This document shows positions 553 to 56,025 of a stretch of 64,000 nucleotides of DNA, in pieces. The position numbers and the translations under genes are program-made. The DNA comes from Panopea generosa (Eukaryota; Mollusca; Bivalvia; Adapedonta; Hiatellidae), in assembly GCA_029582155.1 (NCBI GenBank), contig CM055909.1, positions 15,286,616 through 15,350,615 of the forward strand, given 5' to 3'. How positions within the stretch are numbered: position 1 is the first letter of the stretch; each line of letters starts with the position of its first letter. The notes beneath the pieces were generated by a model. The model was not told the DNA's origin. It was given only the letters and a program-made list of their open reading frames with translations, and did no database searches.

Positions 553-667
553 ATGCTCCTCGAACAAGACATGTTGCAAAACAGGCTGCTGTTATGATGA
601 TGATGGTGATGACAGATATACATATGGTTACAGACTGTCCATATGGAACATGTGGTATTTCTGGTAG
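553..667 (+). CDS. Exon A of the PPPY membrane-protein gene: short Cys-containing ectodomain segment
   Basis: The open frame reads from APRTRHVAKQAAV through a run of methionines (ATG repeats at 595-612) to TDCPYGTCGISG. Acceptor TTGTATAG at 545-552 follows a T-rich tract. The best-looking donor, G|GTAGGT at 663/664, would leave phase 1, but the next exon needs phase 2. The alternative donor AG|GTTATT at 667/668 gives the right phase and an Arg at the junction. No ATG-started signal peptide is encoded here: the open frame upstream begins only at a TTG (489). The 3' half of this exon and its donor are the template of the 70-bp array that follows, so any of several copies could be the spliced one. 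Confidence 0.5.
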
Positions 668-3600
668 GTTATTTAATTCATTCTGATATACAGATGGTTA
701 CATACTGTCCATATGGAACATCTGGTATTTCTGGTAGGTTATTTAATTAATTCTGATATACATATGGTTACAGACTGTCCATATGGAACATGTGGTATTT
801 CTGGTAGGTTATATAATTCATTCTGATATACAGATGGTTACAGACTGTCCATATGGAACATGTGGTATATCTGGTAGGTTATTTACTTCATTCTGATATA
901 CAGATGGTTACATACTGTCCATATGGAACATGTGGTATTTCTGGTAGGTTATTTAATTTATTCTGATATACATATGGTTACAGACTGTCCATATGGAACA
1001 TCTGGTAATTCTGGTAGGTTATTTACTTCATTCTGATATACATATGGTTACAGACTGTCCATATGGAACATGTGGTATTTCTGGTAGGTTGTTTAATTCA
1101 TTCTGATATACAGATGGTTACAGACTGTCCATATTGAACATATGGTATATCTGGTAGGTTGTTAAATTCATTCTGATATACAGATGGTTACAGACTGTCC
1201 ATATGGAACATGTGGTATATCTGGTAGGTTATTTTATTTATTCTGATATACAGATGGTTACAGACTGTCCAAATGGAACATGTGGTATTTCTGGTAGGTT
1301 ATTTAATTCATTCTGATATACAAATGGTTACAGACTGTCCATATGGAACATGTGGTGTTTCTGGTAGGTTATTTACTTTGTTCTGATATTCAGATGGTTA
1401 CAGACTGTCCATATGGAACATGTGGTGTTTGTGGTAGATTATTAACTTCAGTCTGATATATATATGGTTACAGACGGTCCATATGGAACATGTGGTATTT
1501 CTGGTAAGTTATTTCTTCATTCTGATATACAGATGGTTACATACTGTCCATATGGAACATGTGGTGTTTCTGGTAGTTTATTTACTTCAATCTGATATAC
1601 ATATGGTTACAAACTGTCCATATGGAGCATGTGATATATTTGGTAGGTTATTTACTTCATTCTGATATACGTATGGTTACAGACTGTCCGTATTAAACAT
1701 GTGGTATATCTGGTAGGTTATTTACTTCATTCTAATATACAGATGGTTACAGACTGTCCATATGGAACATGTGGTATATCTTGTAGGTTATTTACTTCAT
1801 TCTGATATACAGATGGTTACATACTGTCCATATGGATCATGTTTTATTTCTGGTGGGTTATTTACTTCATTCTGATATACAGATGGTTAACTTTTGTCCA
1901 TATGGGACATGTGGTATATCTGGTAGGTTATTTATCATTCTGATATACATATGATTACATACTGTCCATAAGATACATGTGGTATATCTGGTAGGTCATT
2001 TACTTCATTCTGATATACAGATGGTTACAGACTGTCCATATGGAACATGTGGTATATTTGGGAGGTTATTTACTTCATTCTGATATACAGATGGTTATAG
2101 ACTGTTCACATGGAACATGCGGTATTTCTGGTAGGTTATTTACTGCATTCTGATATACAGATGGCTACAGACTGTCTGTATCGAACATGTGGTATTTCTG
2201 GTAGGTTATTTACTTCCATTTGATATACAGATGGTTACAGACTGTTCATATGGAACATTTGGTTTTTCTGGCAGGTTATTTACCATTCTGATATACTTAT
2301 GGTTACAGACTGTCCATATGGAACATGTGGTATTTCTGGTAGGTTATTTAACATTCTGATATACATATGGTTACAGGCTGTCCATATGGAACATGTATAA
2401 GTGAGTCTCAGGAAAGGTATTGTTGAATTAAAACTAATTTCAGAATATTTTTTTCACAGAATGTTTCATAATAATGTAAAAAAAAAAAAGAAACTTAATA
2501 AATATTCATGAAGTTCAGCATAGTTTAATTACTTTAAAGAACAATATTCTTTGTTGCAAAATATATAAAAACATGAAATGTCAATGGTAATATCACATGC
2601 CCCAGAAATGGTCTGTAAAAATAACTATGTGTTTTATAAGTGGGGATTTAAAGACAAAAAAAGTGTGAAATTGAAATGTTATGACAAAAGTACAGACCAA
2701 ACAAGAAATCTCAAACAGACTTTGTCAAACAGATTCATGGTCTGACCTTGACCTTGACATGCCATGTCATATTGATCATTTGAGAAAAAAAAGAATAAAA
2801 TCCATCTATGTGTGAAAAGGTTACAGAGCTGACATGAAATCTCATACTGATGGACAGATGAACAAATGATTTCTTTATGCTTCGCCAAGGTGAGCATAAA
2901 AGACATTTAAAATTGTTGAAGTATTGCTTTAAATCTCATTTTACAGAAGTATAACTTTATCTTGAAAATAGCTGCATTTAGGTTTCGTTTTACAAATACA
3001 TTTATTACTTGTGCAGGTTCGTGGTTTTATTTGTCCTTATGTCCTGCTTTGGTGGGTGTGGTTATTACAAACAACGCCAGCGAGTCCTTAGAAATCAACA
3101 CGGCCTCGGCAATGGTTTTTTGCCTGTGCTTCAAGTAACATCCCATCATCATCCTATCAGTTCAAGAATTGTTACGCTTGGAACATCAATGCTACCACCG
3201 CCGGCGACTTTCCGATATTCTTCAAACCTTGGAGCATCAGTCCTGCCACCACCTGGTCCAGCAAGTTTCCAATATTCAGCAAACCTTGACACAGATGTTT
3301 CATCTTTGCCGCCGCCGTATTCAGAGGTAAAGTAAAGCATTTGCACTTAGAGACACAATGCAAAGTAATTTGAATAACAAAATGGCCATTAAATCTCTCA
3401 CCTGTGGCAAAAAAATCTTTCAAATTAAGTTATTTTAGGTTATGTCCTTCTGCAAGTAACTAACAAACTATCTCATAAAGTTTTGGGTGTGAGCAGGACT
3501 TGAACCTACAACATTAGCTGCGGAAGATAAGGGATCTTGAGATGGGTGCCTGAGACCACTTAGCGACAGGGGACACTGCCACTTATTATGCTCCCCCAAA

Positions 3601-6600
3601 GTGGGGGAAGCATATAGTCGCCGCTTCATCCGTGCGTACGTGTGTCCGTCCGTGCGTTCCCATGTTGTTGTCCGGGCTATTTCTCTACAACTCCATGTTG
3701 GAATTTTATGAAACTTGCTAGGATGCATCATTACCAAGTGCAGATGTGCATACTGTCTTTGTGTTCTGGTTCGATGATTTTTCAAGGAGTTATGGCCCTT
3801 TGATTCTATTTGTGACCAAATTCTTGTCTGCGCTATTTCTCTACAACCCCATGTTGGAATTTTATGAAACTTGGTAGGATGCATCATTACCAAGTGCAGA
3901 TGCGCATATTGACTAAGTGTTCCGGTTTGGTGATTTTTTTTTATGGAGTTATAGCCCTTTGATTGAGTCTGTGACCCAATTATTGTCCGCGCTATTTCTC
4001 TACAACCCCATGTTGGAATTTTGTGAAACATGCTAAGATGCATCATTACCAAGTGCAGATGCGCATATTGTCTTTGTGTTCCGATTTGATGATTTTTTAT
4101 GGAGTTATGGCCCTTTGATTCTATTTGTGACCAAATTCTTGTCTGCTCTATTTCTCTACAACCTCATGTTGGAATTTTATAAAACTTGCTAAATATTGTC
4201 TTTGTGTACTGGTTCAATGTTTTTTCATGGAGTTATGGCCCTTTCATTCTATCTGTGACCAAAGTATTGTCCACGCTATTTCTCTACAACCCAATGTTGG
4301 AATTTTATGAAACATGCTAGGATGCATCATGACCAAGTGCAGATGCGCATATTGTCTAAGTGTTCTGGTTTGGTAATTTTTTTACGGAGTTACGGCCCTT
4401 TGATTGAATCTGTGACCAAATTATTGCCGTTGTTATTTCTCTACAACCCCATGTTGGAATTTTGTGAAACTTTCTAGGATGCATCATTACCTGCTATGCA
4501 GTTTGGTATTTTTCAACCAAGTAGCCGGTACAGAGTCAAACACTCACTTGGGGAGCATCCATCGGTTCCACCGATATTTGCTTGTTTAATAATATTTCAT
4601 AGTTTGAGATCTGACTGTCTAGACTTACAGCCAATTAGATTTGGCATAATAGTATATAGTAAATAGCTTTGTCCAGTAAGAACTGGGCCAGGGTATTTTC
4701 CATAAATGACTCCCACCAAAAGGGTTCATATTGTGAAATTTCATAAAATACTATGACCACCTGTAAGTGTATACAGCATTCAAAACATTGTACAATGTAT
4801 ATACCGGTAGGTCAGGGTCCAGGTGTACAAAGGTCAGTGCTCAGTGTATTTCTATTTTGTAAGATATATATTTATCAAAACCTTACATATTTCTCCCTTC
4901 CCTCCACCTGCCTACATTCATCAATAACTTAAGACTGATACTCAAGTCTTACACAGTGTTTTCTTCAGCTCCAATTTTTCGGGGGTCATTGATGACACAT
5001 TGACTTAAAATCTGGGGGTCATTTTCAAAATCAGGGGGTCATCAGTTGACTAGTTTTAAACTTAATCAACTTGAATAAATGGTGGTAAAAAAACCATTAT
5101 TTACTGAAACAGTTTTAATTCTTGTTTCACACAAATTTCTCAATCAAAGCTGCAATTTAAGTTAAAAACTTCAAAACAATTTAACTTCAAACAAATGTTA
5201 CTTCTGGCAACAAGTTACAACAACTAGAAACTAGTTGTTTTTATGATCATGGCCACAGGGCCATGAACTTTTCAAATGTCATGGCCTCAGCTTGATCACC
5301 ATGGCCCAAACTATAATGAAAAACCTAAATTATTTCAACATTTTATAATTCAGCTGAGCTTCATGTTTACCATTACTAAGCATTATACTCTTTGGAAAAC
5401 AAAACTTTGTTGTTTTCTTTTTCCCAAAACCATTTCTCTTCTGGCTCATAGCCAGACTCATTTTAGAGTAATGTTACCTTGATATAAAAACATTTTAGTG
5501 GCTACTTAACAATAATTAATAAAAATTAGTCATTTTTCAAAATGAATATAATTTTCTAAAAGTTTATTTTCTTTTTTCCATAACCTTTTTAACATCCATT
5601 AAAGAAACATAAACGGCGCCGGGAAAACCGCTGGACAAACATAGACTGGCCTATGTTTAAACTGGTATTTAAATGTCGCGCATGACCGTCTTGATACCTT
5701 ATAGAAAACAAAATAAAATGGTTTTCAGATAGAGTATCGTCCGTACATTTCAAACAAGTTTCACAATTTCAACATTTCATCTTTATATACAAACAACCTA
5801 AAACTGGGTATATATCTGTGCTATTGTTGCAGCATACGTTTGTTTTCACAGATGTTATCTTCAAACTATAATATTGCTTCACGGAAAATTATGTATGTGA
5901 TTATAATCGTCTATGCAATTGCATCAATATAGCGTTAATAGCCAATTTAAGCATTTACGTAACTAAGTACAGCCACGTGACTGGGGTTTCCCTGAATCAG
6001 ACCACGTGATCTGCCAAAACAGCTTGCATTTTAAAAATAACTCTGAAACCAGCTTGCTGAAACAAATATGCGTAATTAGAATTTCTGTATTTTTAAGGTT
6101 CTGTCATAGTGGACGCACTGAACAAACTTGATTGCGTCAAATGAGATTTAATTGCGTCAAAAACACAAGAAACGCGCTCTTTAGAAAACACAGCTTACAT
6201 TTTGCAAAACCCAGTAAACATACAATTATGGGTAATAAATGTGATCCTTTCTTTAAATAATTGTTAAAACTGCTTGTTTCTGCAAAAAATAAATATAGTT
6301 ATTTGCTTGTCTAATAAAAATTACTTGAACCTTACATTTTTGACTTTTCGAGTCTGAGCCTAAATCTCAGGCTCAAAATATTGATGAATTTAGGTCCAGG
6401 ACTTGGTGGAAGGGAATAGCGAATATTTCTTGAATTATACAGTATATATATATATATTTGCAGCAACTATCTTGGTACTTCATAAAAAGTCATGTATTTT
6501 ACATTTTGAAATAAAAAATTCTCCTGGTTTATTTATAGTCCTTAATTGTCATAAAACTGGCCTCAATGATAGTAGCTGGGCCTGTTAAGCTAAGTTCGTA

Positions 6601-9600
6601 GCACACCTAACTATCAATCCAAGGGTTGCGACTTTGAATCCTCGCCTGGCCAGTCTCTGTGATGATTAATATACAACATTAACTGATAATTGTCTCACTT
6701 TAATCAGTGGTGAGAGATGAATGACATTATGATGCAATGTCGTATATTCTTCATCATGAAGACTGGCCAGGTGGAGATTCGAACTTACAACCCCGGGATT
6801 GCTAGCCAGATGCACTACTGACTTGACTAATTGGGCTCTGCATCAAATTTAGTAGAAGTATGTGCAGACCATTCATTGACTGTAGTTATGACAACTCTGG
6901 TACCATATTTTCCAGAGCAATTCAGTTTAAATCCAAACTAATCATGGGTCGTATCCCAACCAACCAGGGGTCATATTCACAAATCTTTCTTAAGAATATT
7001 ATTAGACTCAAGAATGAATTTAATTAAAAAAAACATGCTTAGAGATCTTTTTTTTGCGGCCAAAATTTGCAAGCATGTAGTGACACCTAATACTTAGTCA
7101 AATAAATTCGCACAATTATTCCGACTGTCATGGTAAACTAGATATCTAAGGTTGAAATTCGGATTTTCAAGCTCATTACTAAGAATATTCTTAAGAATGG
7201 TTGGTGAATATGGCCCCAGGTGCACATATGGGGGTTTAATGCCATATTCAACAAATTTCTTGTTATATATTAAGGCACATCCAGTTTTATTGGTGGATGA
7301 AGACCTGAGAATGAGTCTGAGTAGCACCACTGTCCTTCCGCAAGTAACGGGCAAACTTTGTCACATAAGTTTTTGGAGCGAGTAAGACTTGAACCAATGA
7401 CTAGACTGGGTCGCATAAATTGACAACACTCTCAATTTCAAATAAACATTAGTAATACTATACACGTGTATGTAGGTGATGGACAACCCCAGCATGTTTC
7501 CTTCTAACATCAAATCAGATATATCACGCCATACTGATCAGCCATGCATTACGGTCAACATACAGCCAGGTAAGTAACTGTTGTAATTTACCATATACAG
7601 TCAGATCACTATCTGTTGTAGTTTACTATATACAGCCAGGTCATTAATTGTTGTAATTTATAATATACAGCCAGGTCAGTAACTGTTGTTATTTACCATA
7701 TACAGCAAGGTCATTAACTGTTGTAGTTTATGATATACAGCCATGTCAGTAACTGTTGTAATTTGCCATATACAGCCAGGTCAGAAACTGTGGTAATTTA
7801 TAATATACAGCCAGGTCATTAACTGTTGTAATTTATGATATACAGCCAGGTCAGTAACTGATGTAATTTACAGTATATAGCTAGGTCAGTAACTGTGGTA
7901 ATTTATAATATACAGCCAGGTCAGTAACTGTTGTAATTTATAATATACAGCCAGGTCAGTAACTGATGTAATTTACAATATATAGCTTGGTCAGTAGCTG
8001 TGGTAATTTATAATATACAGCCAGGTCATTAACTGCTGTAATTTATAATATACAGCCAGGCCATTAACTTGTAATTTATGATATACAGCCAGGTCAGTAA
8101 CTTAGTTTAAACATATTTTATTGCTGTGTTAATTTACAATATACAGTCAGGTCATTAACTGTTGTAATTTATAATATACAGCCAGGTCAGTTACTGTTGT
8201 AATTTATAATATACAGCCAGGTCAGTAACTGTTGTAATTTACCATATACAGCCAGGTCAGTAACTGTTGTAATTTATAATATACAGCCAGGTCAGTTACT
8301 TTGGTAATTTATTATATACAGCCAGGTCAGTAACTATAGTAATTTACCATATACTGCCAGGTCAGTAACTGTTGTAATTTACCATATACAGCTATGTCAG
8401 TAACTGTTGTAGTTTACCATATACAGCCAGGTCAGTAACTGTGGTAATTTATTATTTACAGCCAGGTCAATAACTAATGTAATTTATTATATACAGCAAG
8501 GTAGGTAACTGTGGTAATTTATAATATACAGCCAGGTCAGTAACTGTTGTAATTTATTATTTACAGCCAGGTCAATAACTAATGTAATTTATTATATACA
8601 GCAAGGTAGGTAACTGTGGTAATTTATAATATACAGCCAGGTCAGTAACTGTAGTAATTTACCATATACAGTCAGGTCAGTAAATGTGGTAATTTACAAT
8701 ATAATCAGGTCAGTAACTGTGGTAATTTACCATATACAGCCAGGTCAGTAACTGTTGTTATTTACAATATTCAGCCATGTCAGTAACTGTGGTAATTTAT
8801 AATATACAGCCAGGTCAGTAACTGGTAATTTACCATATACAGTCAGGTCAGTAACTGTGTAATTTACAATATACAGCCAGGCCAGTAACTGTGTAATTTA
8901 CAATATACAGCCAGGCCAGTAACTGTGGTAATTTACAATATACAACCATGTCTGTAACTGTTGTAATTTATAATATTAGCCAGGTCAGTAACTGTTGTAA
9001 CTTACAATTTAATTACAATATATTTAATCAAATTTACATCTAATTCTAAAAAGAAACCATCTGTTGAATTATAATTTGGTTTTCATGTAAGATAGTTATA
9101 TTCTTGCAAATTTGTGGATACATTTCAGAGATGAAAATGTAGCTTGAAATTGCTTTTAAGTGGAGTACATGAACATGTTTATTGTTACAAAAATATGTAT
9201 CTGCACAAATAATTTTTGCTTCCTGTAAGATATTTTTATGAAAATTAGACTGGAGTTAGTTTCAGTAGCGTTCATAAGTTTACAAACTTCTTAGTAAAAA
9301 ATTTGAAATCAGGAAATTCCTTTAGTGCTTCAATTCCATCATTTTATGAACTTTCGCTAGCCTTGTAAATAGTATTCTTTTTAAAATTTGTAAAAATATA
9401 CTGAGAAAATGAAACATTCCTAGGTGTCACAATTTGTATAAAATCCTTAAGACATACGAAGATTAGTGAATTGGGCCAGTGGTTCCCAACATTAAAAGGA
9501 TGTTTGGGATTGCTTTTGTTAAATCCGGTTAACGTCCCTGTTATGCCAATACATGTACATGTACAGTAGTTTTGTATAATCAAAAGTAGAAAACATTTCT

Positions 9601-11371
9601 GCTTACTAATTTAACTTCCTTTTTGATATTAAGGTAAGGCATAATTCCCAACAATGTGAAAAGGAGGTTTGACAATTGGTGTTAAAAGTTTCTGCTTAGT
9701 AACTTGAGTTATTTTTTTGTTTTATCTTCACAAACTTCTCATTTATTCCAACAATGATTTCTTAGCGAATAAAATCGCTTAGAATTTTCAAAATAAATTT
9801 CTCATTTTACAAAGAATTTCATGACCGCCAGCAGATGTTGACCTACTTCCTCAGCCATTGAAATTGCTTCAGAAAGAAGAAAGTAGATCATCATCTGGGC
9901 CGGTTACATAACTTCTGACCTATACTTTGTGCCTGCTCCAAGATCATTACATGTATAACTGGATACAAAATGATAACCTCTTAAAGAGGAAATTCAACAC
10001 TCAACAATCAATCTGCTGTTCAAAGGTTTAAGTCAGACTTAGGCTTACAGTGTATTAAACCAAAACTTGGCAAATTGCATTCTAACAATAGGGTTATTCA
10101 TCGAGAACAAGCTGTTGCAGCCATGTGCAGAATGGTACATACATGCTGTACCCATTCATATCTTTTTAAACGTGAAGCTATGCCAGAGTTTGCATTTGTA
10201 CCACTTACTGTTAAACACATACTGATTGACTGTGTGGACTTTGCACCAGTGCAAGAAAAGTACTACAGGATCGATAGTATGAAACAGTTATTTGACAACA
10301 TTGATGTTACATAATTACATCTTCGGTTTTTTTAAATGAGGTTAACCTCTTTTTAATAGTTGGTGATCATTTTGCAAAAACTTAACAATTAAGCAACCCA
10401 GAGGGAGCGACCGTTAATTTTAACTAAATGAACACTAACTGGCTTAGTGTTCAATGTCATTTGACTGACAGTTTGACGTCATTTGACTGACAGTTTGATG
10501 TCATTTGACTGACTCTGGGTGGAGCTATGATGAAAGCTGAAACGATTGATGTTTTAAAGTTGATGTTTGCTAAGGCTGTTTCTAAGTGAAGCTTGCATGG
10601 CTTTGTAGTTTGTACATGACTTGATCAAAATTGCATCAAGGGCCGAGTCTGTGCAATACCATAAACATGTGCGCAGCGAGAACAAACTTAATTAAATTAT
10701 TTTGTAGGCTGTTTTTAACATATAAGAGCAACACAATTTTGAAAATTGAAGAGATTCCACTGGTTGTCAAATGAGGTTAAACACTAAAATAATTTTGAGT
10801 AGAAACCTGGTTGACAGGTTAATTATTAAAATTATCAAATGTTTATTTAATGTATACTTCATTAATTCCTTCATTTATTTATTTGTAAATAGTTTTGATA
10901 TATTTTTAACCATATTTATTTAATAAATTATTTTCATCACCACATTCATTAGTCTTTGTGTGCACAAAATAACCTATATATGTGTTGATGTGCCATAAAA
11001 CAGCATTGATTCATCCATTCATTTAAACTTCAGTAATTTCAATTATAAAATGGCCCTATTTGTGTATTTGGAAAATTCAATTATTGTGTTTATTCCATAA
11101 TTCTTTAATACAAGGAAAGACGTCCATATAACAAGTTCAATTGATTTCAGTTATACTAGAATTAACCTTTTAATTAGACATTATTGATGTATTTTGTCTA
11201 GGTGGACATTCCATTTATTCTAACCAAATTGGTGACCTATCAACAAATCAGATGCCCAGTCCACCACCTTACTCGGAAGCAACCAATCAAAACACAGCAG
11301 TCACCCAGGAGAATGAAGTTCAAAATTCAACAACCAGTCAAGAAATCCATAATCGTTTGCATGCTAAATAA
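553..11371 (+). CDS. Spliced gene for a small single-pass membrane protein with two PPPY motifs (5' end outside window)
   Basis: I see four exons: about 553-667, 3017-3326, 7476-7569 and 11202-11371. The last three join without ambiguity: exon 3017-3326 ends after a full codon, exon 7476-7569 starts on a codon and ends one base into the next, and exon 11202-11371 supplies the other two bases and stops at TAA. Together they encode about 190 residues. These are a hydrophobic segment of about 17 residues (FVVLFVLMSCFGGCGYY), a basic stop-transfer (KQRQR), and a proline-rich tail with PPPYSE twice. The first exon encodes a Cys-containing segment (TDCPYGTCGISG). The layout of Cys-rich ectodomain, one membrane span and PPxY tail resembles the small cysteine/tyrosine-rich (CYYR1-like) or shisa-like proteins common in molluscs. 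PPxY motifs usually bind WW domains such as those of NEDD4-type ligases. The family name is an inference. A signal-peptide exon is expected upstream. Confidence 0.72.
605..2396 (+). repeat. 70-bp minisatellite copying exon A and its splice donor, about 25 copies
   Basis: The unit reads TTCTGATATACAGATGGTTA CAGACTGTCC ATATGGAACA TGTGGTATTT CTGGTAGGTT ATTTAATTCA. It therefore contains the end of exon A (DCPYGTCGISG), its donor GTAGGT and the first intron bases. Each unit also has TTACAG, a weak acceptor, about 30 bases before the donor. Period 70 is clear from CTGGTAGGTT at 661, 731 and 801. Later copies carry point changes and small deletions. The last copy (ending about 2396) finishes in ATAA|GTGAGT, a stronger donor than the others. 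Since 70 is not a multiple of three, the array cannot be one extended coding exon. Confidence 0.9.
2401..3016 (+). other. Intron sequence after the 70-bp array
   Basis: This AT-rich sequence has no recognised repeat and no further exon that I can support. It ends in CTTGTGCAG at 3008-3016, the acceptor of exon B. Confidence 0.5.
3017..3326 (+). CDS. Exon B: membrane span, basic stop-transfer, proline-rich repeats and first PPPYSE
   Basis: Acceptor TGCAG ends at 3016 and donor GAG|GTAAAG lies at 3326/3327. The exon has 310 bases: one base completing a split codon, then 103 codons. It encodes FVVLFVLMSCFGGCGYY, then KQRQRVLRN, then a tail in which a motif of about 20 residues recurs three times with a LPPP core (SMLPPPATFRYSSNL, SVLPPPGPASFQYSANL, SSLPPPYSE). 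The last copy forms a PPxY motif. The next reading frame stops early (TAA after CFK), so the chosen frame is the only one compatible with the downstream exons. The hydrophobic stretch is short for a membrane helix, so part of the span may be encoded by another exon. Confidence 0.78.
3425..3575 (-). mobile_element. SINE fragment, tRNA-headed family with GTTTAACCCCAT tail
   Basis: Read on the - strand this is GTCTCAGGC ... CTTATCTTCCGC ... GTAGGTTCAAGTCCTGCTC (box-B like), then ACTTTATGAGATAG and GTTACTTGCAGAAGG. The same body occurs at 7226-7410, 23405-23640 and, on the + strand, 61957-62205. This copy lies in the intron after exon B and is 3' truncated. Confidence 0.65.
3592..4575 (+). repeat. 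Hairpin-headed dispersed repeat (TATGCTCCCCC family), full-length copy
   Basis: It opens with a hairpin, TATGCTCCCCCAAAGTGGGG then GAAGCATA, followed by a GTCCGTCCGTGCG-rich stretch. About six internal units of roughly 155 bases follow (CTATTTCTCTACAACCCCAT ... GGAGTTATGGCCCTTTGATT). It ends AACACTCACTTGGGGAGCATCCATCGGTTCCACCGATATT. A second copy lies at 54906-56025 and a bare head at 36051-36130. Open frames inside it (for example - strand 3468-4052) only reflect the internal periodicity. Confidence 0.85.
4576..6565 (+). other. Large intron segment, no gene seen
   Basis: Mostly unique AT-rich sequence. At 4980-5050 the phrase GGGGGTCAT occurs several times. At 5243-5310 CATGGCC/GGCCATG palindromes cluster. 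No exon can be supported and no coding frame is longer than about 70 residues. Confidence 0.4.
6566..6846. mobile_element. Two tRNA-headed SINE copies facing tail to tail (inverted pair)
   Basis: The left copy (about 6566-6700, +) has a tRNA-like head (AGCTAAGTTCGTAGCACACC ... GACTTTGAATCC) followed by CGCCTGGCCAGTCTCTGTGA. The right copy (about 6720-6846) is the reverse complement of the same sequence (TCACTCATGAAGACTGGCC-like body, then GGAGATTCGAACTTACAACC). Related copies lie at 13424-13686 (+), 34915-35110 (-) and 60086-60355 (-). The pair could fold into a long stem in the pre-mRNA. Confidence 0.65.
6965..7219. mobile_element. Short inverted-repeat element (MITE) of about 250 bp
   Basis: The left end reads AGGGGTCATATTCACAAATC then TTTCTTAAGAAT. 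The right end reads ATTCTTAAGAATGGTTGGTG then AATATGGCCCCAGG, its reverse complement with a few differences. No coding capacity. It lies in the third visible intron, directly before a SINE. Confidence 0.65.
7226..7410 (-). mobile_element. SINE, GTTTAACCCCAT-tail family, reverse orientation
   Basis: The + strand shows GGGGGTTTAATGCCATATTC, CCAGTTTTATTGGTGGATGA, AGACCTGAGAATGAGTCTGA, CGCAAGTAACGGGCAAACTT and GAGCGAGTAAGACTTGAACC. This is the reverse complement of the body at 61957-62205. It ends about 65 bases before the next exon. Confidence 0.7.
7476..7569 (+). CDS. Exon C of the PPPY membrane-protein gene
   Basis: Acceptor GTATGTAG ends at 7475 and the strong donor CAG|GTAAGT lies at 7569/7570. 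The 94 bases begin on a codon, matching the end of exon B, and encode VMDNPSMFPSNIKSDISR then HTDQPCITVNIQPG, with one base left over (phase 1). That base is completed by GT at the start of exon D. The exon has no recognised domain and belongs to the cytoplasmic tail. Its last bases and donor (ACAGCCAG|GT) seed the 35-bp array that follows. Confidence 0.72.
7556..9000 (+). repeat. 35-bp minisatellite copying the end of exon C and its splice donor, about 41 copies
   Basis: The unit is ATACAGCCAGGTCAGTAACT then GTTGTAATTTATAAT. The first copy is the true exon end plus donor (ACAGCCAG|GTAAGTAACT at 7562-7579); most later copies read CAG|GTCAGT, a weakened but still GT-bearing donor. A few units have deletions or a short insertion (about 8101-8125). 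This is the second array in this gene that starts precisely across an exon/intron boundary. Confidence 0.92.
9001..10040 (+). other. Intron sequence, no feature seen
   Basis: AT-rich and without recognised repeat. The end of this interval (about 9835-9930) may be an eroded part of the LINE relic that follows, but no frame can be followed with confidence. Confidence 0.35.
10050..10317 (+). pseudogene. LINE (non-LTR retrotransposon) C-terminal relic in the last intron
   Basis: The frame at 10075-10314 contains HREQAVAAMCRMVHTCCTHS then YLFKREAMPEF, PLTVKHILIDCVDF and YYRIDSMKQLFDNI. This matches the C-terminal end of jockey-type LINE polyproteins after the RNase H domain, where 'RxxHTxxTHSYL' is followed by 'PLTVxHILxxCxxF'. 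The spacing between the two cysteine-containing parts is shorter than I expect for the family, and nothing upstream remains open, so this is a 5'-truncated dead copy. A TGTTGATGTGCCATAAAAC tail at about 10983-11001 may be its 3' end. Confidence 0.7.
11202..11371 (+). CDS. Exon D: C-terminal exon with second PPPYSE motif and stop
   Basis: Acceptor TTTTGTCTAG ends at 11201. The first two bases complete the Gly codon split with exon C. The exon encodes GHSIYSNQIGDLSTNQ, then MPSPPPYSEAT, then a Gln/Asn/Thr-rich end and HNRLHAK before TAA at 11369-11371. The PPPYSE here matches that at the end of exon B, so two WW-domain ligands lie about 55 residues apart in the tail. The frame agreement across three introns is strong evidence that the exons are real. 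Confidence 0.8.
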
Positions 11372-11508
11372 AATATGTTTGTTTTGTCAACTTTTGAATT
11401 TGTTTGTGTATTTCTATGCTATACAGTGTATAATCGTATACTGAAATGAAAAAGAATTGCATATCTATGTTTATATGTTAGTTGTATTAAATTGGTATAT
11501 GAATTTCA

Positions 11509-11514
11509 AATAAA
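11509..11514 (+). promoter_or_regulatory. Polyadenylation signal AATAAA
   Basis: AATAAA lies 138 bases after the stop codon of the PPPY gene and is followed within 30 bases by a T-rich stretch. A weaker overlap (AAATAAAATA) occurs at the stop codon itself. Cleavage probably falls between 11525 and 11545, just before the hAT-like insertion at 11600. Confidence 0.55.
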
Positions 11515-11599
11515 AAACAAAAAATTTTTTATTTCATAGTATAATTATTGGTGTGTATAATCTCAGAACTTCATTAAAAGAATTCCAAAGCATTACTAC

Positions 11600-12585
11600 C
11601 AGGCCTTCTAAAATTGCCGGTTTTTCGGTTTTTGGACCGATTTCTGAAGTTCAAAACCGGTTTTCGTTTCAAAGTTTAATAAAAAATCGGTCCAAATATT
11701 TTCAAAGTTCAATAAAAAATCGGTCCAGATATTTTCTATCGGTCGTATAAAATCTCGTAAATTGCTCTTATCATGCCATACTGACCTGTGAAATACGCCT
11801 TGCGGCAATATCATTTGACCCAATTATCCGTTTCTTTTGTCACCTGCTGTGCGAAATGATGTCAATTTCGACCAAACCATTGACGGTATTAGGGGAGTTT
11901 ATCGGAAGAGTATATCGCTATGAAGCACGCCTCCGATGTGTGATCAGCGACCCATAGCGTTCTGTCTGTTCATCAAAAGACTGTGTTTGCGTCCGTAATT
12001 TCTTTGATATACCGCTTACCAAAGCTGGGACGGTCGGACCGAATATTGTTTGCGTCATTAAAATATTTGATAAAACGTGCAGCGTTACTTGTTTGTTTCA
12101 TTTTTTTAAAAAAACAATTTAATTATAAAATTGATGACATTAATTAATGGAAGTGATAAAACCCGGACCGATTTTGTTTTGATGTGGGACAGGTTCTGAA
12201 TTATTTATTTTGGTGGTTGAACCGTTACATTGGTTTCCACGGTGATTATTTCACGCAGCTTCCGGAACTTGCATCACTTCCGGTTCGATCGATCATTTTT
12301 AATATAATGAAAATTATTCAGTAACCTGGAAACATAATGTCAGTCATTAAAATGTACACATTGTGGTAAAGTATGTTATAAATAATACACAAATAAACTT
12401 GAAATCGTTCCTTATTAATAAATAAACGCAGAAAATACATGATGCTGCTGACATGTTGGATGGGGTATGCATACATGTAAAGGCATAATGTAAGGCAATT
12501 TAAGTGATTTTTTTTTAAATAAGTGCGATTCTTACGGTAGTAAAAAACCTGGACCGATTTGCATTTTGGAATTTTAGAAGGCCTG
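11600..12585. mobile_element. Non-autonomous hAT-like element with 8-bp target duplication
   Basis: The ends are CAGGCCTTCTAAAATT and its reverse complement AATTTTAGAAGGCCTG. The element is flanked on both sides by ATTACTAC (11592-11599 and 12586-12593), a perfect 8-bp target-site duplication. Ends of the form CAGG...CCTG with an 8-bp duplication are typical of the hAT superfamily. The motif ATCGGTCC recurs near both ends, in both orientations, with two copies of AATAAAAAATCGGTCC at 11680-11725. No transposase frame is present. The intact duplication suggests a relatively recent insertion. Confidence 0.88.
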
Positions 12586-39039: not shown

Positions 39040-42000
39040 TGAGTTGCCAACTCCTGTTCATCAGGTTCAGGTCCTGTGTTGTTGGATGCAGGCGACTTGG
39101 CACGAGTTGCCAACTCCTGTTCATCAGGTTCAGGTCCTGTGTTGTTGGATGCAGGCAACTTGGCACGAGTTGCCAACTCCTGTTCATCAGGTTCAGGTCC
39201 TGTGTTGTTGGATGCAGGCGACTTGGTGCGAGTTGCCAACTCCTGTTCATCAGGTTCAGGTCCTGTGTTGTTGGATGCAGGCGACTTGGCGCGAGTTGCT
39301 GCCTCCTGTTCATCAGGTTCAGGCCCTGTGTTGTTGGATGCAGGCGACTTGTCGCGAGTTGCCGACTGCTGTTCATCAGGTTCAGGTCCTGTGTTGTGGG
39401 ATGCAGGCGACTTGGCGCGAGTTGCCGACTGCTGTTCATCAGGTTCAGGTCCTGTGTTGTTGGATGCAGGCGACTTGCCGCCTCCTGTCCATCAGGTTCA
39501 GGTCCTGTGTTGTGGGATGCAGGCGACTTAGCGCTAGTTGCCGCCTCCTGTCCATCAGGTTCAGGTCCTGTGTTGTTGGATGCAGGCGACTTGGCGCGAG
39601 TTGCAAACTCCTGTTCATCAGGTTCAGGTCCTTTGTTGTTGGATGCAGGCGACTTGGCGCGAGTCGCGACTCCTGTTCATCAGGTTCAGGTCCTGTGTTG
39701 TGGGATGCAGGTGACTTGGCGCGAGTTGCCGCCTCCTGTTCATCAGGTTCAGGTTCTGTGTTGTTGGATGCAGGAGACTTGGGGTGAGTTGCCGACTCCT
39801 GTCCATCAGGTTCAGGTCCTGTGTTGTGGGATGCAGGAGACTTGGCGTGAGTTGCCGACTCCTGTTCATCAGGTTCAGGTCCTGTGTTGTGGGATGCAGG
39901 TGACTTGGCGCGAGTTGCCGACTCCTGTCCATCAGGTTCAGGTCCTGAGTTGTGGGATGCAGGCAACTTGGCGCGAGTTGCCGCCTCCTGTCCATCAGGT
40001 TCAAGTCCTGTGTTGTGGGATGCAGGCGACTTGGCGCGAGTTGCAGACTCCTGTCCATCAGGTTCAGGTCCTGTGTTGTGGGATGCAGGCGACTTGGCGC
40101 AAGTTGCAGACTCCTGTCCATCAGGTTCAGGTCCTGTGTTGTGGGATGCAGGCGACTTGGCGCGAGTTGCCGACTCCTGTTCATCAGGTTCAGGTCCTGT
40201 GTTGTTGGATGCAGGCGACTTGGCGCGAGTAGCCTCCTGTTCATCAGGTTCAGGTCCTGTGTTGTGGGATGCAGGCAACTTGGTGCGAGTTGCCTACTCC
40301 TGTTCATCAGGTTCAAGTCCTGTGTTGCGGGATGCAGGCGACTTGACGCGAGTAGCTGACTCCTGTTCATCAGGTTCAGGTCCTGTGTTGTGGGATGCAG
40401 GGGATTTGCACGAGTTGCCGACTCCTGTTCATCAGGTTCAGGTCCTGTGTTGTTGGATGCAGGCAACTTGGCGCAAGTTGCCGACTCCTGTCCATTAGGT
40501 TCAGGTCCTGTGTTGTTGGATGCAGGCGACTTGGCGTGAGTTTCCGACTCCTGTCCATCAGGTTCAGGTCCTGTGTTGTTGGATGCAGGCGACTTGGCGC
40601 GAGTAGCTGACTCCTGTTCATCAGGTTCAGGTCCTGTGTTGTAGGATGCAGGCGACTTGGCGTGAGTTGCCGCCTCCTGTTTATCAGGTTCAGGTCCTGT
40701 GTTGTTGGATGCAGGCGACTTGGCGTGAGTAGCTGACTCCTGTTCATCAGGTTCAGGTCCTGTGTTGTAGGATGCAGGCGACTTGGGGCGAGTAGCTGAC
40801 TCCTGTTCATCAGGTTCAGGTCCTGTGTTGTGGGATGCAGGCGACTTGGCATGAGTAGCTGACTCCTGTTCATCAGGTTCAGGTCCTGTGTTGTAGGATG
40901 CAGGCGACTTGGTGCGAGTAGCTGACTCCTGTTCATCAGGTTCAGGTCCTGTGTTGTTGGATGCAGGCGACTTTGTGCGAGTTGCCGCCACCTGTCCATC
41001 AGGTTCAGGTCCTGTGTTGTGGGATGCAGGCGACTTGGCGCGAATTGCCAACTCCTGTTCATCAGGTTCAGGTCCTGTGTTGTTGGATGCAGGCGACTTG
41101 GTGTGAGTTGCAAACTCCTGTCCATCAGGTTCAGGTCCTGTGTTGTGAGATGCAGGCGACTTGGCGTGAGTAGCTGACTCCTGTTCATCAGGTTCAGGTC
41201 TTGTGTTGTAGGATGCAGGCGACTTGGCGCGAGTAGCTGACTCCTGTTCATCAGGTTCAGGTCCTGTGTTGTTGGATGCAGGCGACTTGGCGTGAGTTTC
41301 CGACTCCTGTCCATCAGGTTCAGGTCATGTGTTGTTGGATGCAGGGGACTTGGCGCGAGTTGCCGACTCCTGTCCATCAGGTTCAGGTCCTGTGTTGTGG
41401 GATGCAGGGGACTTGGCACGAGTTGCCGACTCCTGTCTATCAGGTTCAGGTCCTGTGTTGTGGGATGCAGGGGACTATGCGCGAGTTGCCGACTCCTGTT
41501 CATCAGGTTCAGGTCCTGTGTTGTGGGATGCAGGCGAGTTGGCGTGAGTTGCCACGTCCTGTTCATCAGGTTCAGGTCCTGTGTTGTGGGATGCAGGGGA
41601 CTTGGCGCGAGTTGCCGACTCCTGTTTATCAGGTTCAGGTCCTGTGTTGTGGGATGCAGGGGACTTGGCGCGAGTTGCCGCCTCCTGTTTATCAGGTTCA
41701 GGTCCTGTGTTGTTGGATGCAGGCGACTTGGCACGAGTTGCCGCCTCCTGTTCATCAGGTTCAAGTCCTGTGTTGTGGGATGCAGGCGACTTGGCGCGAG
41801 TTGCCGCCTCCTGTCCATCAGGTTCAGGTCCTGTTTTGTTGGATGCAGGCGACTTGGCGCGAGTTGCCGCCTCCTGTTCATCAGTTTCAGGTCCTGTGTT
41901 GTGGGATGCAGGAGACTTGGCGCGAGTTGCTGCCTCCTGTTCATCAGGTTCAGGTCCTGTGTTGTGGGATGCAGGCGACTTTGCGCGAGTTGCCGCCTCC

Positions 42001-45000
42001 TGTTCATCAGGTTTAGGTCCTGTGTTGTTGGATGCAGGCGACTTGGCGCAAGTAGCCGACTCCTGTTCATCAGGTTTAGGTCCTGTGTTGTGGGATGCAG
42101 GGGACTTGGCGCAAGTTGCCGACTCCTGTTCATTCATCAGGTTCAGGTCCTGTGTTGTTGGATGCAGGCGACTTGGCGCGAGTAGCTGACTCCTGTTCAT
42201 CATGTTCAGGTCCTGTGTTGTTGGATGCAGGCGACTTGGCGCGAGTTGCCGCCTCCTGTTCATCAGGTTCAGGTCCTGTGTTGTGGGATGCAGGCGACTT
42301 GGCGCGAGTTGCCGCCTCCTGTTCATCAATTTCAGGTCCTGTGTTGTGGGATGCAGGAGACTTGGCGCGAGTTGCCGCCTCCTGTCCATCAGGTTCAGGT
42401 CCTATTTTGTTGGATGAGGGCGACTTGGCACGAGTTGCCGACTCCTGTTCATCAGGTTCAGGTCCTGTTTTGTGGGATTCAGGCGACTTGGCGCGAGTTG
42501 CCGCCTCCTGTTCATCAGGTTCAGGTCCTGTGTTGTTGGATGCAGGCGACTTGGCGCGAGTAGCTGACTCCTGTTCATCATGTTCAGGTCCTGTGTTGTT
42601 GGATGCAGGCGACTTGGCGCGAGTTGCCGCCTCCTGTTCATCAGGTTCAGGTCCTGTGTTGTGGGATGCAGGCGACTTGGCGCGAGTTGCCGCCTCCTGT
42701 TCATCAGTTTCAGGTCCTGTGTTGTGGGATGCAGGAGACTTGGCGCGAGTTGCCGCCTCCTGTCCATCAGGTTCAGGTCCTATTTTGTTGGATGAGGGCG
42801 ACTTGGCACGAGTTGCCGACTCCCGTTCATCAGGTTCAGGTCCTGTTTTGTGGGATGCAGGGGACTTGGCGCAAGTTGCCGACTCCTGTTCATCAGGTTC
42901 AGGTCCTGTGTTGTGGGATGCAGGAGACTTGGCGCGAGTTGCCGACTCCTGTTCATCAGTTTCAGTTCCTATTTTGTTGGATGAGGGCGACTTGGCACGA
43001 GTTGCCGACTACTGTTCATCAGGTTCAGGTCCTGTTTTGTGGGATGCAGGCGACTTGGCGCGAGTTGCCGCCTCCTGTTCATCAGTTTCAGGTCCTGTGT
43101 TGTGGGATGCAGGAGACTTGGCGCGAGTTGCTGTCTCCTGTTCATCAGGTTCAGGTCCTGTGTTGTTGGATGCAGGCGACTTTGCGCGAGTTGCCGCCTC
43201 CTGTTCATCAGGTTTAGGTCCTGTGTTGTTGGATGCAGGCGACTTGGCGCAAGTATCCGACTCCTGTTCATCAGGTTTAGGTCCCGTGTTGTGGGATGCA
43301 GGGGACTTGGCGCAAGTTGCCGACTCCTGTTCATCAGGTTCAGGTCCTGTGTTGTTGGATGCAGGCGACTTGGCGCGAGTAGCTGACTCCTGTTCATCAT
43401 GTTTAGGTCCTGTGTTGTTGGATGCAGGCGACTTGGTGCGAGTTGCCGCCTCCTGTTCATCAGGTTCAGGTCCTGTGTTGTGGGATGCAGGCGACTTGGC
43501 ACGAGTTGCTGCCACCTGTCCATCAGGTTCAGGTCCTGTGTTGTGGGATGCAGGCTACTTGGCGCGAGTTGCCGACTCCTGTTCATCAGGTTCAGGTCCT
43601 GTGTTGTTGGATGCAGGCGACTTGGCGCGAGTAGCTGACTCCTGTTCATCATGTTCAGGTCCTGTGTTGTTGGATGCAGGCGACTTGGCGCGAGTAGCTG
43701 ACTCCTGTTCATCATGTTCAGGTCCTGTGTTGTTGGATGCAGGCGACTTGGCGCGAGTTGCCGCCTCCTGTTCATCAGGTTCAGGTCCTTTGTTGTTGGA
43801 TGCAGGCGACTTGGCGCGAGTAGCCGCCTCCTGTTCATCAGGTTCAGGTCCTTTGTTGTTGGATGCAGGCAACTTGGCGCGAGTAGCCGACTCCTGTTCA
43901 TCAGGTTCAGGTCCTGTGTTGTTGGATGCAGGGGACTTGGTGCGAGTTGCCGACTCCTGTCCATCAAGTTCAGGTCCTGTGTTGTTGGATGCAGGGGACT
44001 TGGCGCGAGTTGCCGACTCCTGTTTATCAGGTTCAGGTCCTGTGTTGTGGGATGCAGGGGACTATGCGCGAGTTGCCGCCTCCTGTTTATCAGGTTCAGG
44101 TCCTGTGTTGTTGGATGCAGGCGACTTGGCGTGAGCTGCCGACTCCTGTTCATCAGGTTCAGGTCCTGTGTTGTGGGATGCAGGCCACTTGGCGTGAGCT
44201 GCCAACTCCTGTTCAACAGGTTCAGGTCCTGTGTTGTTGGATGCAGGCGACTTGGCGTGAGCTGCCAACTCCTGTTCAACAGGTTCAGGTCCTGTGTAGT
44301 GGATGCAGGCGACTTGGCGTGAGCTGCCAACTCCTGTTCATCAGGTTCAGGTCCTGTGTTGTTGGATGCAGGTGACTTGGCGGAGTTGCTGACTTCTGTT
44401 CATCAGGTTCAGGTCCTGTGTTGTTGGATGCAGGCGACTTGGCGTGAGCTGCCGACTCCTGTTCATCAGGTTAAGGTCCTGTGTTGTTGGATGCAGGCGA
44501 CTTGGCGTGAGCTGCCCACTCCTGTTCAACAGGTTCAGGTCCTGTGTTGTTGGATGCAGGCGACTTTGCGTGAGTTGCCAACTCCTGTTCATCAGGTTCA
44601 GGTCCTGTGTTGTTGGATGCAGGCGACTTGGTGGAGTTGCTGCCTCCTGTTCATCAGGTTCAGGTCCTATGTTGTTGGATGCAGGCGACTTGGCGAGAGT
44701 TGCCGACTCCTGTTCATCAAGTTCAGGTCCTGTGTTGTGGGATGCAGGCGACTTGGCGTGAGTTGCCAACTCCTGTCCATCAGGTTCAGGTCATGTGTTG
44801 TTGGATGCAGGCGACTTGGTGCGAGTTGCTGACTCCTGTTCATCAGTTTCAGGTCCTGTGTTGTTGGATGCAGGCGACTTGGCAGAGTTGCTGACTCCTG
44901 TTCATCAGGTTCAGGTCCTGTGTTGTTGGATGCAGGCGACTTGGTGCGAGTTGCTGCCTCCTGTTCATCAGTTTCAGGTCCTGTGTTGTTGGATGCAGGC

Positions 45001-45595
45001 GACTTGGCAGAGTTGCTGACTCCTGTTCATCAGGTTCAGGTCCTGTGTTGTTGGATGCAGGCGACTTTGCGCGAGTTGCCGACTCCTGTTCATAAGGTTC
45101 AGGTCCTGTGTTGTGGGATGCAGGCGACTTGGCGCGAGATGCCGACTCCTGGTCATAAGGTTCAGGTCCTGTGTTGTTGGATGCAGGCGACTTGGCGTGA
45201 GTTGCCGACTCCTGTCCATCAGGTTCAGGTCCTGTGTTGTTGGATGCAGGTGACTTGGCGCGAGTTGCCAACTCCCGTTCATCAGGTTCAGGTTCTGTGT
45301 TGTTGGATGCAGGCGACTTTGCGCGAGTTGCCGCCACCTGTCCATCAGGTTCAGGTCCTGTGTTGTGGGATGCAGGCGACTTGGCGCGAATTGCCAACTC
45401 CTGTTCATCAGGTTCAGGTCCTGTGTTGTTGGATGCAGGCGACTTGGCGTGAGTTGCAAACTCCTGTCTATCAGGTTCAGGTCCTGTGTTGTTGGATGCA
45501 GGCGACTTGGCGCGAGTTGCCACCTCCTGTTCATCAGGTTCAGGTCCTGTGTTGTGGGTTGCAGGCGACTTGGTAGAAATTGCCGACTCCTGTTT
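39040..45595. repeat. 63-bp minisatellite (21 codons), about 104 copies, inside the pseudogene exon
   Basis: The unit on the + strand is GCGAGTTGCCGACTCCTGTT, CATCAGGTTCAGGTCCTGTG, TTGTTGGATGCAGGCGACTT, GGC. In the frame that enters from the exon acceptor at 45603 (- strand) it reads ATRAKSPASNNTG then PEPDEQES. Five of six frames stay open for long stretches (up to 679 residues on + at 42095-44134 and 585 on - at 40376-42133) because 63 is divisible by three. A few units are 1-7 bases short or long (for example at 39475, 42131, 44297, 44380, 44633 and 44883), so no single frame spans the array. Position-specific variants (GTTGCCGCCTCC, GTAGCTGACTCC, CATCATGTTCAGG) recur in blocks, including a near-identical block of about 378 bp repeated at 42200 and 42578. 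Confidence 0.93.
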
Positions 45596-54905: not shown

Positions 54906-56025
54906 AGATGGATGTCCGTCCTTGTGTCACCAAATTCATGTCCGGGCTATTTTTCTACAACCTCTGGTTAGAATTTTATGAAACATGCTACGATGCATCA
55001 CTACCAAGTGGAGATGTGCATAATATCTTTTCGTTCTAGTTCGGTGATTTTTCACAGAGTTATGGCCCTTTGATTATGTTTGTGACCAAATTCTTGTCCG
55101 GGCTATTTCTCTACAACCCAATGTTGGAATTTTATGAAACTTGCTAGGATGCATCACTTTTAAGTGAAGATTGCATAATTTATTTGTGTTCTGGTTCAAT
55201 GATTTTTCACGGAGTTATTGCCCTTTAATTGAGTCTGTGACCAAATTCTTGTTTGGGCTATTTATCTACAACCTCAGGTTGTAATTTTATGAAACTTGCT
55301 AGGATGCATCATTACCAAGTGCAGATGTGCATATTGTCTTTATGTTTCAGTGCAATGAGTTTTCATGGAGTTATGGCCCTTTGATTTTGTCTGTGACCAA
55401 ATTCTTGTCCGCGTTATTTCTCTACAACCCCAAGTTGGAATTTTATGAAACTTGCTAGAATGCATCACTACCAAGTGGAGATGCGCATATTGTCTTTGTG
55501 TTCTGGTTCGATGATTTTTTATGGAGTTATGGCCCTTTCATTGAGGCTGTGACCAAAATATTGTCCGTGCTATTTCTCTACAACCTCAGGTTGGAATTTT
55601 ATGAAATTTGCTATGTTTGTGTTCCAGTTCATTGATTTTTCACGGAGTTGTGGCCCTTTCATTCTGTCTGTGACCAAACTTTTCTCTGCTCTATTTCTCT
55701 ACAACCTCTGGTTCGAATTTTATGAAACTTGCTGGGATGCATGATTACCAAGTGGAGATGTGCATATTGTCTTCATGACGCTATTGCGCTACAACCTCTG
55801 GTTTTAATATTGTAAATCTAGCTAGGATATGCACATATTGTCAATTTGTTCCTGTTCAACGATTTGCGAATGAGTTCTGTCAAGTGCAGAGTCACATATT
55901 GTTCCTGCTATGTAGTTTGGTATTTTTTTAACCAAGTAACCATCAGTACTAAGGGAATATGGTACAGAGTCAAACACTCACTTGGGGAGCATCCATCGGT
56001 TCCACCGATATTTTCTTGTTTTGCT
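54906..56025 (+). repeat. TATGCTCCCCC-family dispersed repeat, copy lacking its hairpin head
   Basis: It starts at the GTCCGTCCTTGTGTCACC part and carries about six units of roughly 155 bp (CTATTTCTCTACAACCCAAT ... AGTTATGGCCCTTTGATT). It ends GAGTCAAACACTCACTTGGG then GAGCATCCATCGGTTCCACC, identical to the end of the copy at 3592-4575. It abuts the right arm of the inverted repeat ending at 54902. Confidence 0.85.

Follow-up and report, generated by a model that had tools for sequence, protein, structure and literature searches.

Minisatellite arrays spanning two splice donors of a VOPP1/WBP1-like gene in the clam Panopea generosa and their likeness to the mirages of amphioxus

The DNA analyzed here—in the following the window—is a stretch of 64,000 nucleotides from Panopea generosa and belongs to an assembly of 1.47 Gb. 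The plus strand of the window carries the 3′ part of a VOPP1/WBP1-like gene, of which four exons are visible (Table 1). The exon junctions used are all of the GT–AG type, and the reading frame is continuous across them. The spliced product, P0001, features a match to the Pfam family WBP-1 with an E-value of 5.7e-5, which lies below the cut-off. P0001 has 52 homologues; those with names are mostly molluscan, with a few from other invertebrates. The 14 homologues that were aligned (12 with mollusc names and two nameless) share 36 to 48% identity with P0001. Six other frames of the window gave no useful match in Pfam, and an Rfam scan of the window gave no match at the gathering score. Two of the four visible exons, A and C, have donors that are spanned by tandem arrays.

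Table 1. Exons of the VOPP1/WBP1-like gene and the two donor-spanning arrays, in positions of the window (the slash marks the exon end)
Feature	Position	Strand	Repeat	Description
Exon A	553..663	+		Begins at a predicted acceptor; GT of the donor at 664
Array 1	615..2396	+	26 units of 70 bp, the final one partial	Unit 1 combines the terminal 49 bp of exon A with the donor and the intron start
Exon B	3017..3326	+		Donor without array
Exon C	7476..7569	+		Donor CAGCCAG/GTAAGT, GT at 7570
Array 2	7557..9011	+	42 full units of 35 bp	First unit: exon C end and donor
Exon D	11202..11371	+		Includes the stop codon

Array 1 carries the real donor sequence of exon A, CTGGTAGGT, in 17 of 25 units—the real donor counted—and retains the GT in 23 of 25. 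Since the real donor sequence is present in most units, strength alone does not mark out the first copy. The array shows a weak polarity: the divergence of the exonic part from the exon copy grows with distance (Spearman 0.40, p 0.046), and the intronic part behaves similarly (Spearman 0.34, p 0.10). The exonic bases of the array encode a stretch ending in W-N-M-W-Y-F-W, in which N, W, Y, F and W are invariant in 15 aligned proteins. Because the bases shared by exon and array encode these invariant residues, exon A must predate array 1. Upstream of exon A, at 7–274, lies a further array of period 70 with 3.8 copies. The alignment of its reverse strand with the array 2 unit outscores 996 of 1000 shuffles; this is one of eight comparisons and perhaps chance.

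The first unit of array 2 covers the final 10 bp of exon C (13 bp under a looser alignment) and contains the donor CAGGTAAGT (CAG/GTAAGT). The sequence-only reading had given about 41 copies, mostly reading CAG/GTCAGT, in an array that starts exactly on the donor. The array and its 35-bp period are real, with a slightly higher count. The exact form CAGGTCAGT (CAG/GTCAGT) is found in 20 of the 42 units, and the GT is retained in 37. Neither array starts at its donor: array 2 begins 10 bp before the end of exon C and array 1 49 bp before that of exon A. Of the 40 other scorable units of array 2, not one equals the first unit in donor strength, as judged by donor weights that were not fitted. One unit, near 8105–8140, is badly degraded. 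The most similar units sit three apart, giving a higher-order period of 105 bp. At 8448–8659, a three-unit block is duplicated exactly or nearly so (units 27–29 and 30–32), and this near-identity is a sign of a recent multi-unit duplication. In the same alignment of 15 proteins, exon C ends in a variable stretch, which sets no age order for array 2 and exon C. Arrays that predate their exons, which the sequence-only reading had named as counting against its view, are thus contradicted at array 1.

Neighboring units diverge by about 10% and 16% in arrays 1 and 2. The units of the two arrays have no detectable kinship, as their alignment score is reached by 115 of 1000 shuffles on the same strand and by 446 of 1000 on the opposite strand. 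A common origin of the two arrays was therefore rejected, as was the idea that array 1 began as a doubled 35-bp unit, where the alignment is likewise no better than shuffles. As the sequence-only reading held, the periods differ (70 and 35 bp), and the two donors were probably amplified independently. Reading past the first donor leads at once to a stop codon in both arrays. Splicing at a later donor would run into this stop immediately, so selection should keep splicing at the first copy. The window also harbors repeats of other kinds. An array of about 104 copies of a 63-bp unit occupies 39041–45594; 63 is a multiple of three, and long frames are open on both strands. Related 156-bp repeats lie at 3668–4319 and 54925–55733, and a similar 155-bp unit occurs at an arbitrary locus (L024), a likeness at three places that points to a dispersed repeat family.

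A search for arrays over donors, akin to the one that the sequence-only reading had proposed, was carried out with a donor word in the genome of the animal itself. The pattern consisted of CAGGTAAGT three times at gaps of 15 to 45 bases, and the same pattern read backwards served as control; 572 matches were found, against 244 for the backward pattern. The first listed places of the donor-word matches, from C1 to 84.65 Mb on C3 (286 Mb), correspond to 15 separate arrays by our reading. The 5′ edge was reached in 14 of them, all but L045/L037. Eight of these 14 edges fall on the donor of an exon and begin within that exon (L031, L035, L036, L039, L041, L042, L043 and L044/L033), a figure that comes from a sample preselected by the donor word, in which only the 5′ edge was read. 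Exons, for donor and control arrays alike, were called by unblinded visual inspection. Five of the eight exons have homology support, two of it strong and three weak. The exon at L044/L033 belongs to an SNF2-type helicase (E 5e-18), which we take to be BTAF1/Mot1. The exon at L043 is neurobeachin/LRBA-like (E 6e-9) and is older than its array because it is conserved up to the exon end. The weak matches are NDEL1-like (E 0.011), TMC-like (E 0.08) and one of E 0.07 that is presumably C-type-lectin-like. The other three are called from an open frame and splice signals only: the L036 and L039 exon pieces had no homology match, and the L042 exon is too short for a homology test. In Pfam, none of nine exon pieces gave a match at the curated cut-off, the best being a weak vWA match at L038 (E 0.003).

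Among the remaining edges, the array at L030 sits on the acceptor of an opposite-strand exon, which is ACSM-like (E 5e-9), and the array at L038 begins 64 bp past a donor. L029, L032, L034 and L040 have no recognizable exon at the 5′ edge, L034 having a long open frame of uncertain nature. At the end of L041, on the reverse strand, a 34-bp unit contains a pyrimidine tract, CAG and CAG/GTAAGT, and each copy resembles an acceptor, a tiny exon and a donor. The backward-word places listed correspond to 23 arrays by our reading (20 with three look-alike pairs merged) and extend from C1 to 59.3 Mb on C11 (935 Mb). Fourteen of the 23, mostly shorter ones, were examined with both edges read, and 26 of the 28 edges were seen. 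A single array among these 14, L050, sits on an exon boundary, the acceptor of a SPATA17-like exon (E 6e-7). In the acceptor arrays L050 and L030, the units end in TTTGCAG, after which the exon begins with its first bases.

Whether donors are hit more often than chance predicts can be judged in several ways. The single donor word occurs 16,114 times against 12,171 times backwards (ratio 1.32), which reduces the triple-match ratio of 2.34 to a 1.77-fold excess, with matches clumped within arrays. Counted as distinct arrays per Mb, the corrected excess over the control is 1.61-fold (P 0.104), rising to 1.85-fold with the look-alike control arrays merged (P 0.054) and to 2.27-fold in the matched span of 286 Mb, where 15 donor-word arrays stand against five control arrays (P 0.078). 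The eight donors against six others among the 14 edges amount to 1.75- to 3.1-fold over the word-count share, with P between 0.03 and 0.22 depending on the assumed background; a cruder estimate assuming 4,000 to 12,000 real donors gives P between 0.003 and 0.41. These estimates all point one way but share data and are not independent.

Arrays are dense in this genome: an arbitrary 180 kb sample contains 40 of them, which take up 20% of the bases. Founder units cover about 1.4% of sites in arbitrary sequence and 0.63% for periods of 24 to 54 with at least three copies. At the measured array densities, the chance that two of three donors are overlapped in one given four-exon gene is about 1e-4 to 6e-4. 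Across the genome—assuming 7 introns and 25,000 to 40,000 genes—about 20 to 166 genes with at least two donor arrays are expected by chance, so a two-array gene is unremarkable once many windows are read. The recurrence of donor arrays is thus most likely mostly or wholly at the rate of chance placement, and a twofold bias towards donors is possible. The word search bore out the recurrence, at eight of 14 word-chosen edges, but not a clear excess beyond chance (p 0.05–0.10). An excess of 1.6- to 2.3-fold does not establish the assertion that two donor arrays in one gene are unlikely to be chance.

The position of the donor within the unit is not fixed. The exonic overlap ranges from 6 to 49 bp and its share of the unit from 0.14 to 0.85, which fits a uniform distribution (KS p 0.47, 10 cases), with the reservation that the choice of word itself demands at least three exonic bases and that the L042 value is unsure. 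Were the start of an array determined by the donor, the distance between them would be fixed, and the variation in distance argues against this.

Minisatellites of this kind, the mirages, were reportedly first described by Canestro in 2002. In amphioxus, mirages span exon–intron boundaries in the Adh3 and globin genes (PMC3087553) and are also found in PGBD5 and troponin C (PMC3902484). As in arrays 1 and 2, the unit of the amphioxus mirages spans the boundary, and AG/GT signals are present in many but not all units, comparable with the GT retained here by 23 of 25 units in array 1 and by 37 of 42 in array 2. Both 5′ and 3′ boundaries are affected in amphioxus, and the same is true of the clam genome with its acceptor arrays, the present gene having arrays at donors only. 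In amphioxus, the exon-side copy is expressed and the mRNA is normally spliced, whereas in the clam gene this is predicted from sequence alone. Lengths of amphioxus mirages differ between haplotypes or tissues; the clam arrays are known from one assembly. Compared with the amphioxus mirages, which include those of the globin genes BflGb6 and BflGb9, the present case differs by its occurrence in a mollusc, by its tens of units (BflGb6: 6 and 3) and by having two arrays in one gene.

In human genes within segmental duplications, variable minisatellites with a mean unit of 30 bp lie at exon–intron boundaries; that study (PMC2812944) describes about four units on average, located in exons or turned into new introns, with alternative transcripts seen. 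In the clam, by contrast, 26 and 42 copies occupy introns that were already present. The AGGT model (PMC4974935) explains intron gain by a tandem genomic duplication that contains splice-site-like sequence. Unlike in that model, the clam gene gains no new intron; the boundary of an intron already present is copied and makes that intron longer. Passages on intronic minisatellites of C. elegans and of earthworm metallothionein genes note no boundary-spanning arrays (PMC4039745, PMC12783039). A literature search, mostly of listings and largely outside subscription papers, returned no boundary-spanning case from a bivalve or another mollusc.

Arrays 1 and 2 are probably minisatellites of the mirage type that arose from random founding duplications and are tolerated since the first copy still splices. 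A 35-bp tandem duplication would by chance have spanned the final bases of exon C together with the donor and the intron start. The exon-side copy would have kept the frame and the donor, leaving splicing at the first copy and the protein unchanged, and further copies would have fallen into the intron and multiplied there as an ordinary minisatellite. A separate event of the same kind, with a 70-bp unit, would have taken place at exon A. Selection would keep the exon-side copy intact; the first donor is predicted to be the one used, and the extra copies are presumably neutral. Placement of the arrays appears random within about a factor of two. In a genome so rich in minisatellites, founding units would meet donors and acceptors by chance, which makes boundary arrays common. 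The sequence-only reading instead tied the birth of arrays to exon ends or 5′ splice sites, for example by R-loops or replication slippage; breaks at exon ends would be another such route. We regard such a tie as unlikely. In its favor stand the two arrays in one gene, the eight donor edges and the corrected excess of 1.6- to 2.3-fold (1.77-fold by matches). Against it, this excess reaches only p 0.05–0.10, the sample was chosen by the donor word, the donor offset is not fixed and acceptors are overlapped as well. R-loops in particular were rejected: GGG runs amount to 1.7 per kb in array 1 and 0 per kb in array 2, compared with 7.6 per kb in the window, and the G-over-C skew of +0.21 in array 1 is the sole point in favor, the skew of array 2 being only +0.05.

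It is also improbable that array 2 came first and that exon C later came to end in its first unit by way of one of the array donors. In favor of that order, exon C and the array have just 10 bp in common, and the exon end varies among the 14 homologues; on the other side, GTAAGT occurs in the first unit only, the others having mostly GTCAGT, and the exon is clearly older at array 1 and in the neurobeachin-like case. A function of the arrays in splicing or expression, for instance as decoy donors or U1-binding clusters, is very improbable: despite the many retained donors (17 of 25 real donor sequences in array 1, 37 of 42 GT in array 2), all 40 scored donors of array 2 fall below the real one by the unfitted weights, neighboring units differ by the margins given above, and later donors lead to an immediate stop. 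In a further, tentative and rather doubtful reading, arrays that span splice sites might have about double the rate of origin or survival of arrays elsewhere, because the exonic unit, held constant by selection, acts as a permanent master copy that reseeds the array.

With these arrays, a minisatellite of the amphioxus mirage type is now found in a mollusc, at conserved genes and with tens of units. The comparison of a tandem donor word with the same word read backwards provides a counting method that is free of annotation. Mirage arrays can mislead gene prediction. In addition, they place many ready splice sites beside exons, on which alternative splicing and the formation of new introns could draw. 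If the master-copy reading were true, mirages would form a general class of exon-anchored minisatellites wherever animal genomes are rich in arrays, and would keep spare splice sites in constant supply.
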